From positions 682,001-746,000 of the forward strand of contig NZ_CP080544.1 in NCBI RefSeq assembly GCF_019551435.1: a stretch of DNA of 64,000 nucleotides, in the 5' to 3' direction. Source of the stretch: Lysobacter soyae (GTDB taxonomy: Bacteria; Pseudomonadota; Gammaproteobacteria; Xanthomonadales; Xanthomonadaceae). The translations under genes were made by a program, and so were the position numbers. Within the stretch, counting starts at the first letter, position 1, and every line of letters starts with the position of its first letter. Below the pieces are notes generated by a model. The model saw nothing but the letters and a program-made list of their open reading frames with translations. It ran no database searches and was not told where the DNA came from. Shown one piece after another: positions 41,697 to 52,853 of this stretch.

Positions 41697-41703
41697 TCAT
41701 CCC

Positions 41704-41791
41704 CCTCCTTCTCCACAAAGTGGAGAAGGAACCCAACCCCTTCTCCACTACGTGGAGAAGGTGCCCCCAAAGGGGGCGGATGAGGCGCTCC
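41704..41791 (+). repeat. REP-like palindromes, copy 6 (after tuf2), partial tandem
   Basis: A first stem CCTTCTCCAC-AAA-GTGGAGAAGG alone, then 12 bases later a complete unit CCTTCTCCAC-TAC-GTGGAGAAGG-T-GCCCCC-AAA-GGGGGC-GGATGAGGCGC. It starts 7 bases after the stop of tuf2. Confidence 0.9.
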
Positions 41792-41820
41792 TAAAAAAGC
41801 CCACCCTTGATAAACCCAAA

Positions 41821-41855
41821 AAAATCCCCCGCTCAAAAAAGCGGGGGATTTTTTT
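41821..41855 (+). terminator. Strong intrinsic terminator of str operon
   Basis: AAAATCCCCCGCT, loop CAAAAA, AGCGGGGGATTTT followed by more T (to 41855). A 13-pair stem with a T run: the only textbook intrinsic terminator in the window. It separates tuf2 from tRNA-Ala and from S10. Confidence 0.92.
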
Positions 41856-41878
41856 ATGTATGATCAAACCGTACCTAC

Positions 41879-41954
<76 letters not shown>

Positions 41955-41967
41955 AACTCCTTACCAT

Positions 41968-42010
41968 TGTTTGGGCTGCCTGCGCCCACCCGTTGTTCGC
42001 AAGGCTTGCG
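41968..42010 (+). repeat. Imperfect direct repeat, left copy
   Basis: TGTTTGGGCTGC, 13 unlike bases, TTGTTCGC, then AAGGCTTGCG. The same pieces at the same spacing recur at 52474-52516, just before rpsJ, with GG replacing AA. The two copies enclose the whole inserted segment. Confidence 0.5.
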
Positions 42011-42807
42011 GGACTGTCGTCCGCGTTTTCCCGACAACACTCGAGGGATCGACAAGGAATTCTATGTTGTCGTGCCCTTCTGAAGGGTCGCTGCTGCACT
42101 GATAATCATGACCATGTTGTAAAACCGAACAAGGCTGTCGCTGCCGATACAAACTCCGTAAGCCCGTCCTTGATACTCCATCCATTGCGGTAGATTCCCA
42201 GAAACCCGTCCGCTTTCGCGCAACACAACGTTTATCCAAGTTATGTTTTCCGCTCCCACAGATGGAACCAGCAGACTCGTTGAATGATGCATCCAAGATG
42301 GTGACCGGTGACATCGTATTCCCCGACAAACGATTGATCGGTCCAACAATCCGTTAGATTGAGCATCATATTCAAGCGGCTCTAAAGGTTGCCTTCGGGT
42401 TGCCTATACAGCTTTTGACGCATTGACAGGAAGCCATCGAGCCATCGGAATTGGCAATACTTGACGCGGAGAAGCGAGAGCTCCTCCAGTATGTGACTGA
42501 GCGCTTGGATATTGAAGCCCACTTTAGACCTGCAAACCTCCAGAGTTTTATGATGGAAGATCACATGGTCTGAGCGTTCTTCTCGAAGTGCTTCTTGCAG
42601 CGGACAGTTGGCATCCAACGTGACTTACTTCAAATCAAATCTATCGACGCGGGTCGCGGAGTCGGCAATGAGCATCAGAATGCCCCTGCGGCAATGCTGA
42701 TCTTCAGATCATTGCGACAATAAGTGTCCTGTCTCTAAGCGGGCTCGAGTAGGTCATTCTTGAGTTGGTAAATCGTCGCGTTAGGGTGGCGTGCGGATAC
42801 TGCGGCT
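42011..42807. other. Degenerate region without a supported gene
   Basis: About 800 bases with lower GC and irregular codon use. Two weak leftward frames exist. 42062-42349 contains QWMEYQGRAYGVCIGSDSL and could be a fragment of a real protein. 42382-42618 has a TTG start and ends LYRQPEGNL. A rightward stretch at about 42431-42574 (PSELAILDAEKRELLQYVTE) looks protein-like but has no start. I recognise none. The region is best read as decayed accessory DNA. Confidence 0.5.
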
Positions 42808-43170
42808 CTAGACTTTGAACTCAAAGTTTGGAATCCAGCTGTGGCGCTTGTTGAATTCGTTGAAAGCCGAAACCACGCCGATGTCGTGACCGAATATATA
42901 GCGAGTAGAATCCGAGCCAGGATTGACGAGCCTTAGTAGGCCTCTATAAATCTCAAAAGTGACGGGTGCAGTTTGTGTGAACTGGTTTAGGCAACGCTGT
43001 AGATATAAACCGTACAAATTCTTAGATTTATCTGCAATATCGTGTTCGGCATCGTCTACAAGTTCTTGGAGCAAGCCGCGGGCAGTAACCAAATGCTCTA
43101 GTTTCGCCCTATGATTCTGGGCGTCCTCCGCCTGTTCCAAATGCAGCTTCATTTCCTCGAAAGTGTCCAT
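42808..43170 (-). CDS. Hypothetical helical protein downstream of hsdR
   Basis: A 120-residue protein of no recognised family. It starts MDTFEEMKLHLEQAEDAQNH (an ATG five codons earlier, 43185, is possible). The first 60 residues are predicted amphipathic helix (LEHLVTARGLLQELVDDAEH), followed by YGLYLQRCLNQF and a less regular end, NKRHSWIPNFEFKV. It is in the same orientation as the hsd operon and could be its last gene, although degenerate sequence lies between. It may be a truncated protein. Confidence 0.45.
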   Translation of the reverse strand: MDTFEEMKLHLEQAEDAQNHRAKLEHLVTARGLLQELVDDAEHDIADKSKNLYGLYLQRCLNQFTQTAPVTFEIYRGLLRLVNPGSDSTRYIFGHDIGVVSAFNEFNKRHSWIPNFEFKV

Positions 43171-43185
43171 AAATGCACCATACAT

Positions 43186-43485
43186 CTAAAGCACTCGAGT
43201 TAAGTCGCTGCCAACCTTCAGGTAGGTTTGACATCGAATTGATCCTAACTGTCGGCTTGAACCAATTAAAAAACCGATTTGCAAAAAACAGTAGAACAAA
43301 CGCCCCGGCGGTTTATTGAGTTGCAGATATGGCGATTTCAGGTGGATGAAATTCCCCATGTCTGCCAGCAGCTGATGCACTTCCTTGTCCGCCCAGACTT
43401 ACTCGCGCTTGTAGTCCAAGACTATATTGAAGCACTATCGCAATGCCTCCTCAAAGCGGTATTGGTGGTTCTCAATGCGTGCCAT
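43186..43485 (-). pseudogene. Decayed reading frame between hsdR and the small ORF
   Basis: From ATG 43485 leftward the frame reads MARIENHQYRFEEALR, stop (43435-43437), CFNIVLDYKRE, stop (43399-43401), then VWADKEVHQLLADMGNFIHL and onward to a third stop at 43186. All pieces are in one frame and protein-like, so this looks like a gene inactivated by nonsense changes. The family is not recognised. The following ORF starts in the same frame directly after the last stop. Confidence 0.4.
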
Positions 43486-43527
43486 ATCCCTCAGGCTCCC
43501 TTTGTTCTTGCGTTACCGACGTGACGG

Positions 43528-46500
43528 TTATCGCGAATGCTTATTGGGTAGTTCAGCGATGCGAACCGACCACCCCGATGACAACGCCTCAGCTTGCTGC
43601 AGCACGGTCTGCACTGCCGCATCCTGCAAATCAGGCGGATAGCCATACTTTCTCAGGATGCGCTTCACCAACACGCGCATCCGCGCTCTTGCCGAATCGC
43701 GGTGCGCCCAATCGACGGAGACGTTTTCGCGCAGACTGACCAGCAGCTCGTGAGCGATAAGTTTCAGCCTGTCGTCGCCCATCATCTGAATGGCGCTTTC
43801 GTTCTCGGCAAGTGCATCGTAGAAGGCAATCTCCTCGTCGGACAGCCCTTGCTCTTCACCCCGCTGGCGTGCCGCACGGATGTCCTTGGCCAACTGGATC
43901 AGCTCCTGCAGCACCTCTGCGGTCGTGATCGCATTGGCGTGGTAGCGCGCCATAGCGTCTTCTAGGCGTTCCGAGAAGGCCTTGGTCTGCACCACGTTGG
44001 CCTTGCTGCGCGAGCGAATCCCATCGTTCAGCAACTTGCGCAATGCTTCCAGAGCAAGATTCCTCTTCTCCATCTGTTGCACTTCGGCAAGGAACTCGTC
44101 GGAGAGGATGGAGATGTCCGGGCTCTTGACTCCTGCAGCCGCCAGGATGTCTACGATCTCGGTCGAAACCACAGCACGGCTTACGATTTGCTGGATAGCC
44201 AATTCGCGCTCCTGCTGGGCCATGCCAGACCCTGAACTGCTCTTGACCAATGCAGCGCGAATCGCCTGGAAGAAGCCAACCTCCTCTCGAATTTCTCGCG
44301 CCTCGTCAGAGGCAGAGGCCAAAGCGTAAGCCTTGGACAATGCGAGCACGGCATCCTGGTATCGGCGGTGAGCGTTCTTCTTACCCTCCGCCGTTCTTTC
44401 CTTCTCAGCCAGCTTCTGCTGCAGACCAAGAATCCACTCGATGGCGCCAGCCATCATTACCAAGCGCTCTTGGGGCGTACCACCAATCGCCGACGCATAG
44501 TCGTAGCCGTGGTACATGTCCCGCACGACCTCGTACTTCTCCATCAGCACTGCGATGGCCTGCGCTTCGTCGACGCCGGTGTTTTCTTGGTCGCTCTTGG
44601 AGTACTGTTGTAGAGCGGACTTCAGGCTTTGCGCAATGCCGATGTAGTCCACGATCAGTCCTGCGGGCTTGTCGCGGAACACACGGTTCACACGTGCAAT
44701 CGCCTGCATTAGGCCATGCCCCTTCATCGGCTTATCCACGTACATCGTGTGCATGCACGGTGCGTCAAAGCCGGTGAGCCACATGTCCCGAACGATCACG
44801 AGCTTGAGCGGGTCTTTGGGATCGCGCGCACGCATCGCCAACAGATCACGCCGGGCCTTGTTGCCAATGTGCTGCTGCCACTCCTGCGGGTCGCTCGCGG
44901 CCCCCGTCATCACGATCTTAACAGCACCTGCGTTGTCATCGGTGCTGTGCCAGTCGGGTCGCAGCTTGATGATCTCGTCGTAGAGCTTCACGCAAATGCG
45001 ACGGCTCATACACACCACCATCGCCTTGCCATCAAGGGCTGCCACACGGTCCTCGAAGTGGGCAATCATATCGTTGGCCACCAAAGCAAGGCGCTTATCG
45101 CTGCCAACCAGAGCTTCAACCGTTGACCACTTCTTCTTGAAGCGCTCCTGGTCGACCTCGGAGTCCTCCTCAGTCAGATCGTCAACCTCGGCGTCGATCT
45201 TCGGCTTCTCGTCCTCGTCGAGTTCGATGCGCGCCAACCGCGACTCGTAATAGATCGGAACGGTCGCACCATCCTCGACCGCACGGCTGATGTCGTAGAC
45301 ATCGATGTAGTTGCCGAATACCGCCGGGGTATTGACGTCGTCCGCTTCGATGGGCGTACCGGTAAAGCCGATGAAGGATGCGTTCGGCAGAGCGTCGCGC
45401 ATGTACTTGGCAAAGCCATAGGAGATTTCGCCGGTCTTCGCGTCCACTTTGGCCTTGAAGCCGTATTGGCTGCGGTGCGCTTCATCCGCGATGACGACCA
45501 CGTTGCGACGGGTAGTGAGCGGCTCCGCAACCTCGCCGAACTTCTGCAAGGTCGTGAAAATCACGCCGCCAGATGCCCGGCTCAAAACCTTCTGAAGATC
45601 TTCTCGGTTCTCGGCCTGCACGGGCGTCTGCCGGATCAGATCGCGGCACCTAGAGAAGGTAGAAAAGAGCTGATCGTCGAGGTCGTTGCGGTCAGTCAGC
45701 ACCACCAACGTCGGGTTGGCCATTGCCGGGTGTTTGACCAGCTGCCCAGCGTAGAACGCCATCAGCAGGCTTTTGCCAGAGCCCTGGGTGTGCCAAATCA
45801 CGCCCGCGCGCTTATCGCCTTGACGTTGAGTCCTCACACTTGGCAAACCGTAGCCAACAGGGTCTTCTGCCACTCCCTCCACTGCCATCGAAGCACGAAC
45901 AGTCGATGCCACCGCGTGTCGCACTGCATGGAACTGGTGGTAGCCCGCGATGATCTTGGCCAGCCCCGAACCGGTTTCGCCGAAGACTGTGAAGTGACAG
46001 AGCAGGTCGAGCAGTCGACTATGCTCGAACACACCATCAATCAGTGTTGAAAGTTCCGGCGCGCCCTTCGGTGCAACGTCCGTGCCATCGGTAGTGCGCC
46101 ACGGCATGAAGCGTTCAACGTCTGCCGACAGTGACCCCACCCGGGCCGCAATACCATCTGACGTAACCAGCAGCGCGTTGGTGTTGAACAGCGCCGGAAT
46201 CTGCTTCTTGTAGGTCTGAAGCTGGTTGAACGCGCCCAGCAGATGCGCCCCCGCGCTGCCTGGAGCTTTCAGCTCAATCACCCCCAGCGGCAAGCCGTTC
46301 ACGAACACCACCACATCGGGTCGCCGGTTGTTCTGGCCGTTGATCACCACGAACTGGCTTACCGCCAGCCAGTCGTTCTGCTCCGGGTTTTCGAGGTCGA
46401 TGAGCGCGACCTTGCCCGCTGTCAGCGTGCCGTCGTCGGCGTAGTACTCGACGTCCACGCCTTCCGTCATCAGCTGGTGGAGGCGGCGGTTCTCTTCGAG

Positions 46501-46746
46501 CAACGATGGCAGATCGGACTGCATCACGCGCCGGACGGCTTCATGACGCGCCTCCAATGGCAAACCAGGATTCAGACGCGCAACGGCGTCCTCGAATCGT
46601 TTCTTGAGCACGACCTCATCGTGACTCTCGCGCTCCGGTCGGTGTCCATCTGGGCCAATGTCCTCCTCGCGTTCGACGACGTAATCGAGAGCTCGCAGCT
46701 GATCCAGCAACGCCTGCTCGACGGCGGCCTCAGATAGAAAAGCCAT
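43528..46746 (-). CDS. hsdR: Type I restriction enzyme, R subunit
   Basis: A 1072-residue HsdR. The nuclease core is visible at residues 143-160 ([20 protein letters not shown]: Asp144, Glu158, Lys160). The translocase motor has the P-loop QGSGKS (321-326), DEAH (421-424), FTGTP and [14 protein letters not shown]. The C-terminal helical domain should contact the methylase. It is needed for ATP-driven translocation and cleavage of unmodified DNA. All motifs are intact. It follows the HEPN-like gene by about 34 bases and ends the hsd operon. Confidence 0.95.
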
Positions 46747-46780
46747 TATTGTTCTCCTGCGAATCTGAATTTGTACATTT

Positions 46781-47827
46781 CTATTCAGCCTCTAACCCAA
46801 AAACCCCCCGCAACTCATTTATTTCTGTTGCGAAGTTTTTTCGGCTTTCTTCGTGACGCGTGGCTTCACCAATAACTTCGTACTCAAGCCGCCTATCGGG
46901 GTCTTCCCCGCGTGTCTTTCTAAATATGCAAAGACGAGTAGAGTGACCGACGCCGTCCTCGCGAAAGTAAATCAACGGGCGAAGGCCAAAAATAAGCCCA
47001 TCAGCAATAACGAGCATTTGTCCTTGCTGAAAATATTTCGCAGACTCCAGCATTTGCTGATGGCTAATTTTGATGTTCTGGATTGTCCTTGTGGAGCTAT
47101 GCCCGCGGAATATTTCACATCGCAGAGTTGTCCCATCAACCTGACCTAAATATCGAACAATCTGGATGTCTTCTAGTCCATCAAGATCTGCAAGTACTTC
47201 CACTACATCTACATAGCATTCGGTAATCCAGCTCCGCGCCTGTACCTCAGACTGTGCCGCGCTATGAGAGAAGGCATTTCGAGACTGGTTGAGCTCCTTC
47301 ATCGCAGCAAGTGTCGCCGCTGGTGAGATTTTTGCGACGGAGGGGAAAATTCCTGCTGCACTCAACTGGCTAGTGATTTTCTCGATGTTTTCAAGCCTTT
47401 GTGCAACGCTATCAGTGAACAGATCCTTGAACTTCAGCGGATCTACGACCGGAATATTTCGATGACGACATTCCGCCACAGCTAGCGCATGAAGAATATC
47501 GATGACCGACTCCCAGGTGTCCCGTAGAAGATGCAGGCGTTGCAGATCGCTCTCGTACCCATTTTCGAATCGGTAAAAATAGTAAGCAATCGGTGATGGA
47601 AATTGATTGCATACGGATTCTTTAATTCCTTCTTCGCGCTGTTGGGTGAAGTCCGAAAATGTCGCTTCATAAGTATCCGGACTCATGGTGAAAAGAACGA
47701 AGCTTGGCCTTGGCTGAAAACCAAAAATTTCGAGGTTTCCGCCCGTCTGTTCTGAGTACTGCTCATCCAACCACTCGTTGTATGTCGGACAAGCCTCATA
47801 ATTGTTTGGGTCGAGCTGAAGCTTCAT
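46781..47827 (-). CDS. Candidate HEPN-domain protein embedded in hsd operon
   Basis: A 348-residue protein of unrecognised family between hsdS and hsdR. Numbered from the ATG at 47827, the middle is helical ([19 protein letters not shown], then [11 protein letters not shown]) and carries RNAFSH at residues 183-188 (bases 47264-47281). That fits the RX4-6H HEPN RNase signature with Asn after Arg. The last 120 residues look beta-rich ([30 protein letters not shown]). HEPN nucleases such as PrrC and RloC are known companions of type I systems. Function is inferred. An ATG at 47857 overlaps hsdS. Confidence 0.65.
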
Positions 47828-47831
47828 CTGA

Positions 47832-50700
<2,869 letters not shown>

Positions 50701-50824
50701 TGTGCATCTTCCAGTTTTCGAACGATTTGTACTGCGTAAATTCTCAATGCTTTAAAACTTTCTCCGCACATCAACGGCCGTTCACATGCACCGCGAAGAT
50801 GTGGGCTCAGCAAGTGAGGGAACC

Positions 50825-51454
50825 TCATTTGTTCCTGTCCGTCCCCGCAACGGGCAAATGCCAGCCCCTACGCACCGCCAACATCCGCAAAACAAAACAA
50901 AGCAGCGCACCCGCAAACATCACCGCCGCAGACGGCAGGCCCAACGCTATACCAACCACCACCACGGTCGCACCAGCCAACGCCGCAATCGCATACAAAT
51001 CCGCACGCAACACCATCGGCACATCGGCCAGCAACACATCACGCAACATCCCGCCGCCGATCCCGGTGAGCATGCCAAGCAACGCCGCCATCACCGGATT
51101 CAATCCGTAGTCCAAGGCTTTCTGCGCGCCGGCAACGGCAAACAATCCCAAGCCAGCGGCATCGAACATCCGCACCGGTGTTTTCATGCGTTCAATCAAG
51201 GGCGCCCAGAAGAAGGTGATAAGACCGGCACCCATCGCCACCGCCAAGTAGCGCCAGTCCCGCAATGCAGCTGGCGGCGTTGCACCAATCAACACGTCAC
51301 GACAAATACCGCCAGCGCTTGAAGCGGCAAAAGAAAGTACGAGCACGCCGAACAGATCCAACTGCTTTCGTGTAGCCACAGTCGCGCCGCTCAATGCAAA
51401 GACGAACGTGCCGACTAAATCGGCGATCAACAGCAGAACTTCAGATGAAGGCAT
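50825..51454 (-). CDS. TRIC-family (UPF0126/YicG) membrane protein
   Basis: A 209-residue protein with seven hydrophobic segments arranged as two related halves, each carrying a glycine-rich bend: SSAGGICRDVL and GIGGGMLRDVL. This is the signature of the bacterial trimeric intracellular cation channel family (UPF0126). It is expected to form a cation channel in the inner membrane. It shares orientation with hsd, but composition returns to that of the core genome, so it is probably not part of the hsd unit. Confidence 0.9.
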   Translation of the reverse strand: MPSSEVLLLIADLVGTFVFALSGATVATRKQLDLFGVLVLSFAASSAGGICRDVLIGATPPAALRDWRYLAVAMGAGLITFFWAPLIERMKTPVRMFDAAGLGLFAVAGAQKALDYGLNPVMAALLGMLTGIGGGMLRDVLLADVPMVLRADLYAIAALAGATVVVVGIALGLPSAAVMFAGALLCFVLRMLAVRRGWHLPVAGTDRNK

Positions 51455-51583
51455 GGCGGTCCCTGGTCGCGTCGGTCACTTTAACATTTGAAAAGCGTGC
51501 TTTCGGAACACTGTGTCGCACGGCCACTGCTACTACGCCGAATCGCGAGTTGCTACGCTGGATAGCTATTCAAGGAGCATCCC

Positions 51584-52363
51584 ATGAACGCACGCATGCC
51601 CACACTCTTCTTCGGTCACGGCAGCCCGATGAACGCCATCGAGGACAACGATTGGGCGCGTGCTTGGGGCGCCATCGGGCGTGACTTGCCCAAGCCGCGG
51701 GCCATTCTGTCGGTATCCGCGCACTGGTATGTGCCGGCCACGGCGGTCACCGCCAACGCGCGGCCCAAAACCATCCACGACTTCGGTGGTTTCCCGAAGC
51801 CCTTGTTCGACGTCCAATATCCGGCGCCCGGCGACGCGGATCTAGTCAAACGGGTTCAAGAGTTGTTGGCACCGCTTGCAGTGGCCGCGGATTCTTCTTG
51901 GGGTCTCGACCACGGCACTTGGTCCGTACTCTGTCATGTCTATCCGAATGCCGACATCCCGGTCGTCCAACTTTCCATCGACAGCACGAAACCGCCGGCC
52001 TTCCATTACGAGTTGGGGCGCAAGCTCCGTCCACTTCGCGACGAAGGCATTCTCCTGATGGGGAGCGGGGACGTCGTGCATAACCTCCACAGTTATGCCT
52101 GGGGCCGCCATCCGGTGGAACCGTTTGACTGGGCGACCCGTTTCGAGACCTTGGCCCGCAAGCTGATGGAGCAGGGGGATCATCAGACTTTGGTGGATTA
52201 CGACGCTTTGGGGCGGGATGCGGAGCTGTCGATTCCGACGCCGGAGCATTATTTGCCGTTGTTGTATGTGCTTGGGGCGAGTTATGAGGGGGAGGTGCCG
52301 AGTTATCCGGTGGAGGGGATGGATGGGGGGTCTATTTCTATGTTGACGGTGCGGTTTGGGTGA
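51584..52363 (+). CDS. ygiD: LigB-type extradiol dioxygenase, YgiD-like
   Basis: A 259-residue class III extradiol ring-cleavage enzyme. PTLFFGHGSPMNAIEDNDWA is the family start; the metal His ligands lie in GHGSP and SAHWYV, and DHGTWSVLCHVYP follows. YgiD-type enzymes cleave 4,5-DOPA-like catechols using Zn or Fe. GGAG lies 10 bases before the ATG. The last 150 bases become strikingly G/T-rich on the coding strand (GGGGCGAG, GGAGGGGATGGATGGGGG), unlike the rest of the gene. Confidence 0.9.
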   Translation: MNARMPTLFFGHGSPMNAIEDNDWARAWGAIGRDLPKPRAILSVSAHWYVPATAVTANARPKTIHDFGGFPKPLFDVQYPAPGDADLVKRVQELLAPLAVAADSSWGLDHGTWSVLCHVYPNADIPVVQLSIDSTKPPAFHYELGRKLRPLRDEGILLMGSGDVVHNLHSYAWGRHPVEPFDWATRFETLARKLMEQGDHQTLVDYDALGRDAELSIPTPEHYLPLLYVLGASYEGEVPSYPVEGMDGGSISMLTVRFG

Positions 52364-52391
52364 GGGACTGGAGTAAGTGGGGGCTTATTTA

Positions 52392-52447
52392 GGAGCGCCT
52401 CATCCGCCCCTGCGGGGCACCTTCTCCACGTAGTGGAGAAGGGGGGA
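52392..52447 (-). repeat. REP-like palindrome, copy 7 (inverted, before rpsJ)
   Basis: GCGCCTCATCC-GCCCC-TGC-GGGGC-A-CCTTCTCCAC-GTA-GTGGAGAAGG, the reverse of the family orientation, so it faces the ygiD end. It lies about 65 bases before the predicted S10 promoter. Confidence 0.9.
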
Positions 52448-52473
52448 GGGGTTGGGTGTATGATATGTGCCGG

Positions 52474-52516
52474 TGTTTGGGCTGCAGCCGTGAATTTTTT
52501 GTTCGCGGGGCTTGCG
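52474..52516 (+). repeat. Imperfect direct repeat, right copy
   Basis: TGTTTGGGCTGC, 13 unlike bases, TTGTTCGC, GGGGCTTGCG. It matches 41968-42010 at all but two positions outside the spacer. Its last bases overlap the -35 of the S10 promoter. Confidence 0.5.
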
Positions 52517-52541
52517 TAGTGCCTTGAATACCCGTTAGAAT
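52512..52541 (+). promoter_or_regulatory. Promoter of S10 operon
   Basis: -35 TTGCGT (52512-52517), 18-base spacer, -10 TAGAAT (52536-52541). Transcription from near 52548 gives a leader of about 305 bases before rpsJ. A separate promoter is required because the operon is cut off from str by a terminator. Confidence 0.65.
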
Positions 52542-52547
52542 GTAAGA

Positions 52548-52853
52548 CCACTTGCGAATACGTGTCCCAACAGGGGTCAAAACACGCCGCAGTGACGCGA
52601 AATGAGCGGCAGGATGCCTTGCTCGTCTTCGCCAGACAGGGACTTGTCGCGCAAAGATCTCACGCATACAGATGCGTGGGCGGCGCGGATTACGTTTCAG
52701 TCTGGGCAGGCCGGGAAACCGGGCCTGCCTTTGTCGTTTCAAGGATTTGCAATACGTCGAAACCGTAAAACCTGCGGGTTTTAAGGGTCGGCGCCCCGGG
52801 TCAGGCACACCTAGCTGCTTGGCCTTCGCTCTTTCAACCGAGGATTCACCGCC
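52548..52853 (+). promoter_or_regulatory. S10 operon leader
   Basis: About 300 untranslated bases with no gene. They hold GGCAGGCC (52705-52712) pairing with GGCCTGCC (52722-52729) followed by TTTGTCGTTT (52730-52739), an attenuator-like structure. A second hairpin is TAAAACC-TGCG-GGTTTTA (52766-52783). In E. coli, L4 regulates this leader by attenuation and translation; whether L4 acts here is not shown by the sequence. Confidence 0.5.

Follow-up and report, generated by a model that had tools for sequence, protein, structure and literature searches.

A gene of 348 codons stands between hsdS and hsdR in a type I restriction-modification (R-M) operon of Lysobacter soyae, and the question that this locus raises is whether its product could guard the restriction enzyme in the manner of PrrC, the suicide RNase that for decades has been the textbook example of a guard of type I restriction, and, if so, through which part of the protein the two would be linked. 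By the window we mean the whole stretch of DNA analysed, 64,000 nucleotides in length.

The gene and its predicted HEPN core

The placement of the gene inside a type I operon, between hsdS and hsdR, was confirmed: the ORF, running from 47827 to 46781, has no internal stops and translates into 348 residues, with 4 nt separating it from the end of hsdS (47832) and 34 nt from the start of hsdR (46746), and Pfam matches identified the neighbours (Table 1). That the ORF is a real gene under purifying selection is indicated by a dN/dS of 0.05–0.07 between the window copy and each of five relatives (0.03–0.09 over all pairs). The likely start of hsdS was chosen by alignment with the reading in the relatives.

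Table 1. Coordinates of the cargo gene, its predicted parts, and the surrounding hsd genes in the window.
Feature	Position	Strand	Basis and remarks
HEPN-family cargo gene, 348 aa	46781..47827	(-)	between hsdS and hsdR; ORF, homologues, dN/dS
Acidic N-terminal module, codons 8-72	47612..47806	(-)	also in slot effectors of the Abi_C and SIR2 classes and in small phage proteins
Predicted HEPN four-helix core, codons 75-221	47165..47605	(-)	model; likewise in a 30%-identical homologue
RNAFSH, codons 183-188, HEPN catalytic signature R-N-x3-H	47264..47281	(-)	R183/N184/H188 invariant in 8/8 homologues
Beta-rich C-terminal region, codons 221-348	46784..47167	(-)	model; low pLDDT
hsdS ORF	47832..49295	(-)	PF01420; start probably at ATG 49154, with a few bases of overlap with hsdM
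hsdM	49144..50700	(-)	PF02384 and PF12161
hsdR	43528..46746	(-)	PF04313 (HSDR_N), PF18766 (SWI2_SNF2), PF11867 (T1RH-like_C); ribosome site AGGAGA 46753-46758

The operon lies between tuf and rpsJ, within a cluster of ribosomal protein genes (window positions 41697–52853), and a relative of its HsdR was present in only 2 of 16 sampled congeners. Downstream of hsdR, a 125-residue ORF (42808–43185) gave no match in Pfam, PADLOC, or NCBIfam. In related operons a gene for a WYL-domain regulator is found immediately upstream of hsdM (L017 4900–5823, L024 2667–3590, L004 1982–2896); no WYL-type gene adjoining hsdM was listed in the window.

The 348-residue protein matched no family in Pfam (at E up to 1), PADLOC, or NCBIfam. 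The original prediction had pointed to the string RNAFSH (R-N-x3-H) in a helical region as the signature of a HEPN ribonuclease, and had proposed that a HEPN fold and the conservation of R183, N184, and H188 be looked for. Taken alone, the motif is weak evidence because the looser pattern R-polar-x2-4-H arose in 33% of residue shuffles of the protein, and RN-x3-H in 1.9%. The weight rests instead on the invariance of the three residues in all eight homologues—down to 27–30% identity, within a conserved string LNQ-RN-H-AA—and on the position of residues 183–188 between helices 3 and 4 of the AlphaFold model.

That model, built from eight sequences, had a mean pLDDT of 53 (about 50–83 in the core), with core helices at residues 94–122, 141–157, 170–182, and 194–213, and C-terminal strands at 221–231, 234–240, 248–253, 271–275, and 278–282, the pLDDT falling below 50 beyond residue 283; the model of a 30%-identical homologue had a mean of 51. 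Foldseek alone gave no match to the window model at E 0.001, its top rows being unrelated, and the HEPN proteins emerged only upon realignment with VIA-align, where the six best rows were all HEPN—1wty, HI0074 (1jog), and HepT (6m6w, 5yep, 6m6u, 7bxo)—at Z 6.8–8.2, the next row scoring 6.2. With the model of the 30%-identical homologue, HEPN proteins occupied ranks 1–9 and 11–14 (Z 7.2–9.8), the non-HEPN rows being a de novo bundle at Z 8.6 and then values of at most 6.5, all of these scores to be read with the caution that both models are mediocre and that helical bundles, a common arrangement, can reach a middling Z by chance. Both marks of the superfamily were found, namely a four-helix core in the two models, though at a core pLDDT of only about 65–80, and a conserved Rx4-6H with a polar residue after the R; and since fold, motif position, and conservation agree, we regard membership of the protein in the HEPN superfamily as highly probable. 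HepT, the source of most of the best structural matches, has the same R-x4-H spacing as the window protein. HepT–MntA, however, is a type VII toxin–antitoxin system, whereas the window gene has only hsdS and hsdR as neighbours and no adjacent MntA gene, and its product lacks a tyrosine two residues after the His.

The R-N-x3-H signature suggests that the protein would act as an RNase. Alternatively, the domain might bind RNA or protein without cleaving, as is thought of the MtlR-type HEPN proteins, and so serve as a subunit tuning R-M activity. Some HEPN families devoid of activity do appear in passages of Anantharaman et al. (PMC3710099), yet inactive families as a rule lose the signature, which in the present family is invariant in full over 30% identity, and a non-catalytic role thus seems very improbable to us.

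Exchange of cargo between hsdS and hsdR

The HEPN protein is rare in the sequences searched. Among 100 relatives it occurred only in the window's own genome, and among 369 genomes of the class in two, the own genome and G455; a sample of the phylum added one more homologue (G832), and a scan of genome contigs added those of Pandoraea bronchicola, Acidovorax sp. CF316, Buttiauxella brennerae, and Pseudomonas sp. RGM2987, at 89–92% identity, the homologues overall spanning 30–93%. Neither the whole protein nor the family profile found a relative in plasmids, phages, viral contigs, or E. coli genomes. Two further weak profile matches in the 369-genome search (L008/L009), as well as those in L012/L013, were set aside as chance, being short or in the wrong frames of other genes, and L006, a 41-residue fragment at a contig end, was left out.

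The expectation that homologues would be found in hsd operons was borne out by every one whose context could be read, the gene lying between hsdS and hsdR in 8/8 such loci. In close relatives of the window operon HsdM and HsdR are 88–96% identical, whereas HsdS is only 33–37% identical in 4 of the 5, so that the HEPN gene travels with HsdM and HsdR and not with sequence specificity. G455 and G840, for their part, have an HsdR of only 51% identity and carry a DUF3800 gene together with a gene for 160 residues between the HEPN gene and hsdR; the HEPN copy of G840 (locus L018) is frameshifted, its neighbouring hsd genes being intact.

When the contents of the gap were surveyed through relatives of HsdR, the gap proved, as judged from the sequences, to be a slot whose cargo is exchangeable within this operon family, a property that the original prediction had overlooked along with the N-terminal module described below. 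A congener whose HsdR and HsdM are 90 and 87% identical to those of the window holds a Fic-type protein there, HPFLDGNGRVGR; a Klebsiella plasmid (HsdR 91%) holds a BstXI-like nuclease; and two genomes, G429 (HsdR 91%) and G374 (HsdR 89%), hold Abi_C, in one of them together with SIR2. Other relatives have SIR2, FRG, or Fic proteins; an OLD-type ATPase with DUF3800 and RhuM/Fic; an M78 peptidase with DUF4411; a reverse transcriptase with TIR; AAA_13 (PrrC-like); Schlafen AlbA_2; or DUF4268. SIR2, Fic, TIR with the reverse transcriptase, AAA_13/PrrC-like, and Abi_C are toxin-like or defence families. In L054 (4341–7009) the reverse-transcriptase gene comes first and the TIR-domain gene follows. 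Nothing occupies the gap in L049, L063, L067, and L068, and in the E. coli loci L093, L094, and L096. The existence of such a slot is in part known already, since DarTG2 and other gene pairs have been reported in the hsdS–hsdR gap, a site called a potential hotspot (PMC12255303). There, in the RRDM island of EPEC, the slot is likewise taken by a defence gene of toxin type, DarTG2, but its toxin is an ADP-ribosyltransferase with an antitoxin gene of its own and no HEPN domain.

Two other slot proteins, an FRG protein (L027 5152–6414) and a long Abi_C protein (L038 653–1810), have ends that look like the HsdR C-terminus (Pfam T1RH-like_C, E 6e-4 and 3e-3; our own profile, 7e-5 and 3e-4, respectively), and such tails are possibly a second way of docking on the methyltransferase. 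As a general docking piece the tail was discarded: it is present in those two cargo proteins only, and absent from the window HEPN protein.

A slot filled by toxin-like genes, together with best structural matches that are HEPN toxins of type VII toxin–antitoxin pairs, might suggest an addiction module, in which an Hsd subunit or methylated DNA would neutralise the HEPN toxin and so penalise cells that lose the operon, without any sensing of phage inhibition. The nucleotidyltransferase antitoxin gene is, however, absent; moreover, no strong addiction is seen in this operon family, since the three E. coli operons exist with an empty slot, the frameshifted copy of L018 sits beside intact hsd genes, and cargo has been swapped freely among near-identical operons. 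We consider addiction improbable.

An acidic module in slot effectors and phages

When the HEPN family was compared by hhalign with seven Abi_C slot proteins, residues 8–76 aligned with the Abi_C tails (E 2.2e-4, probability 45%), the HEPN parts remaining outside the alignment; a single family comprising Abi_C and the window protein is thus unsupported beyond the module, and the window protein gave no PF14355 match. The Abi_C (PF14355) slot proteins occupy the same slot and carry the same small module together with an R-N-x6-H motif, but their module is C-terminal, whereas that of the window protein is N-terminal. We then ran a profile of the HEPN-family N-terminus over 2185 ORFs from all the fetched loci. 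The best non-self matches were the Abi_C cargoes of L050 (7.5e-5) and of Paraburkholderia L091 (2.7e-4), followed by the SIR2 cargoes of L087 (1.8e-3) and, marginally, L025 (0.077); each of these genes lies directly after hsdS, L087 itself having entered the set through a module search. The reverse search with Abi_C tails reached the HEPN N-terminus at weak E values (0.1–1.0 and 0.019).

In the 369 genomes a combined profile yielded, once its seeds and sequences closely related to them were set aside, a single good match that was new, in G424 (E 2.1e-4). This locus (L087 3476–11321) consists of an EcoEI-type hsdR-hsdM-hsdS operon, unrelated to that of the window, followed by a gene for a SIR2 protein bearing the module N-terminally and then by a gene for a patatin-like phospholipase. 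Matches in L088–L090 (E about 0.02–0.03) fell in unrelated genes and were attributed to chance. Against plasmids, the 60-residue module of L010 found six places, three of them between hsdS and hsdR (in Paraburkholderia, Picosynechococcus, and Acinetobacter), one in a vequintavirus-like element, and two, by chance, in SDR genes; the E values are weak (0.07–9), and the evidence here is the genomic context. As judged by these profiles, the module of about 65 residues at the N-terminus of the HEPN protein is common to three classes of slot effector (HEPN, Abi_C, and SIR2). It is acidic (net charge −6 to −14; net −9 in 64 residues) and had no match among solved structures.

The module also has relatives in phages. 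In PHROGs, residues 14–62 of the window protein matched phrog_9294 (E 1.5e-4), and L010 7–59 and L050 159–221 matched phrog_9396 (E 5.4e-4 and 5.7e-4, respectively). By tblastn the module was found in 127 phage records, mostly from Vequintavirus-type Escherichia phages, in the form of stand-alone proteins of 113–116 residues encoded in arrays of small genes, and IMG/VR added four more divergent small phage proteins. Aligned by hhalign, the bacterial modules and the phage proteins gave E 2.1e-8 and a score of 40.5, against a shuffle maximum of 13.8. An origin of the module in the C-terminal domain of ArdA-type DNA mimics, attractive at first sight (YFDYEAYARDL, acidic), is not claimed, because the hhalign score of 10.9–11.2 lies within the shuffle range (maximum 13.6). 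Nor do we claim an anti-restriction role for the phage protein, since vequintaviruses are described in passages of PMC8594841 as exceptionally sensitive to R-M systems; the systems named in those passages do not include type IC-like systems of the present kind. The similarity suggests that the module either derives from a phage protein that contacts the same partner as the module, or acts as bait by mimicking it.

These phage relatives bear on another reading, in which the protein would be an autonomous sensor and effector: a HEPN RNase free of Hsd, whose module would bind a phage or host factor also bound by the small phage proteins, the operon providing only co-expression and co-transfer. 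The closest relatives of the module outside the slot effectors are indeed free-standing phage proteins, slot fillings such as the reverse transcriptase with TIR and the OLD-type ATPases resemble self-standing defence modules, and DarTG2 works in the same slot as a toxin–antitoxin pair (PMC12255303). A free sensor would nonetheless be expected outside R-M operons as well, whereas in the 369 genomes every strong module match falls in a gene that immediately follows hsdS, and 3 of the 6 plasmid matches fall between hsdS and hsdR, so that we regard autonomy as rather unlikely.

A proposed latent guard of the restriction complex

The proposal that we favour takes PrrC as its model. The PrrC gene lies within a type Ic hsd locus; its product is kept silent by EcoprrI, to which it is linked, and is switched on by T4 Stp (PMC2610378, PMC12707154). 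The 348-residue protein belongs with high probability to a new, motorless HEPN family and would most likely be a latent RNase that stands guard over the type I R-M enzyme of its operon, PrrC-like without the ATPase and with the module as the link; to this reading we assign a probability of roughly 0.5. The HEPN protein would be produced together with HsdM, HsdS, and HsdR and be kept silent within or close to the Hsd complex; a phage disabling or overwhelming that complex would release the RNase, which would then cut RNA and so bring translation and phage growth to a stop. What ties the protein to the R-M complex, or to the phage inhibitor of that complex, would most likely be the acidic module (residues ~8–72), since it is the sole part common to the unrelated effectors of the slot. 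Because unrelated effectors in one operon position share it, a common partner is suggested, for which the Hsd complex appears the simplest candidate, its chief rival being a host factor that phages target; the partner could be something other than Hsd.

With PrrC/EcoprrI of E. coli CTr5X the locus shares a HEPN-superfamily RNase gene, presumed latent, inside a type I hsd locus (PMC2610378, and passages of PMC3710099). PrrC has, however, an N-terminal ABC ATPase and the triad Arg320-Glu324-His356 (PMC2610378), whereas the window protein has R-N-x3-H and a phage-related N-terminal module. Thus, of the features of PrrC and RloC, the embedding in a type I hsd operon is present and the N-terminal ABC ATPase absent: as the original prediction had noted, the 348-residue sequence contains no P-loop (GK[ST]), and it gave no Pfam AAA or ABC match. 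That prediction went too far in calling the arrangement distinct, motorless HEPN genes in R-M operons being known already: at least 16 HEPN clades linked to R-M, with a PrrC-like control proposed for them, figure in passages of Anantharaman et al. from 2013 (PMC3710099). With these families the window protein shares an Rx4-6H HEPN domain in a conserved R-M neighbourhood, but it differs in having no Pfam-A, PADLOC, or NCBIfam match and in an N-terminal module that is not described in those passages. HEPN genes in R-M operons, the PrrC-like hypothesis, PrrC itself, and toxin genes in the gap are thus known; new, as far as our searches reach, are the present HEPN family and the module common to slot effectors and phages, the literature searched (open-licence papers) yielding no description of a phage-related module shared by different slot effectors.

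A second, smaller, motorless HEPN protein in a like operon position, and a short domain in three classes of slot effector as well as in phages, suggest a common wiring of cell-shutdown effectors to restriction systems. Tentatively, and at somewhat less than an even chance, the gap may be conceived as a plug-in socket and the acidic phage-related module of ~55 residues as the common plug, which would couple killing domains of the HEPN, Abi_C-type HEPN-like, and SIR2 NADase types either to the restriction complex or to the assault that a phage makes on that complex, and with which the phage's free copy could compete, or which it could trigger. If that were true, the guard architecture would be general and PrrC one special case. 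How toxin-like genes in hsd operons learn that restriction has failed becomes, in any event, a testable question: the module profile offers a sequence handle for finding such effectors, and the phages that carry it, named and sequenced, are available for trigger or blocker tests.

A further arrangement was observed in L051 (3104–4633), L052 (4591–6027), and L049 (5205–6824), the coordinates being given with hsdR turned to the + strand: the N-terminus of the HsdS ORF looks like a minimal nucleotidyltransferase and a small HEPN-like gene precedes it, a possible fusion, by its sequence, of a type VII toxin–antitoxin partner to the specificity subunit.
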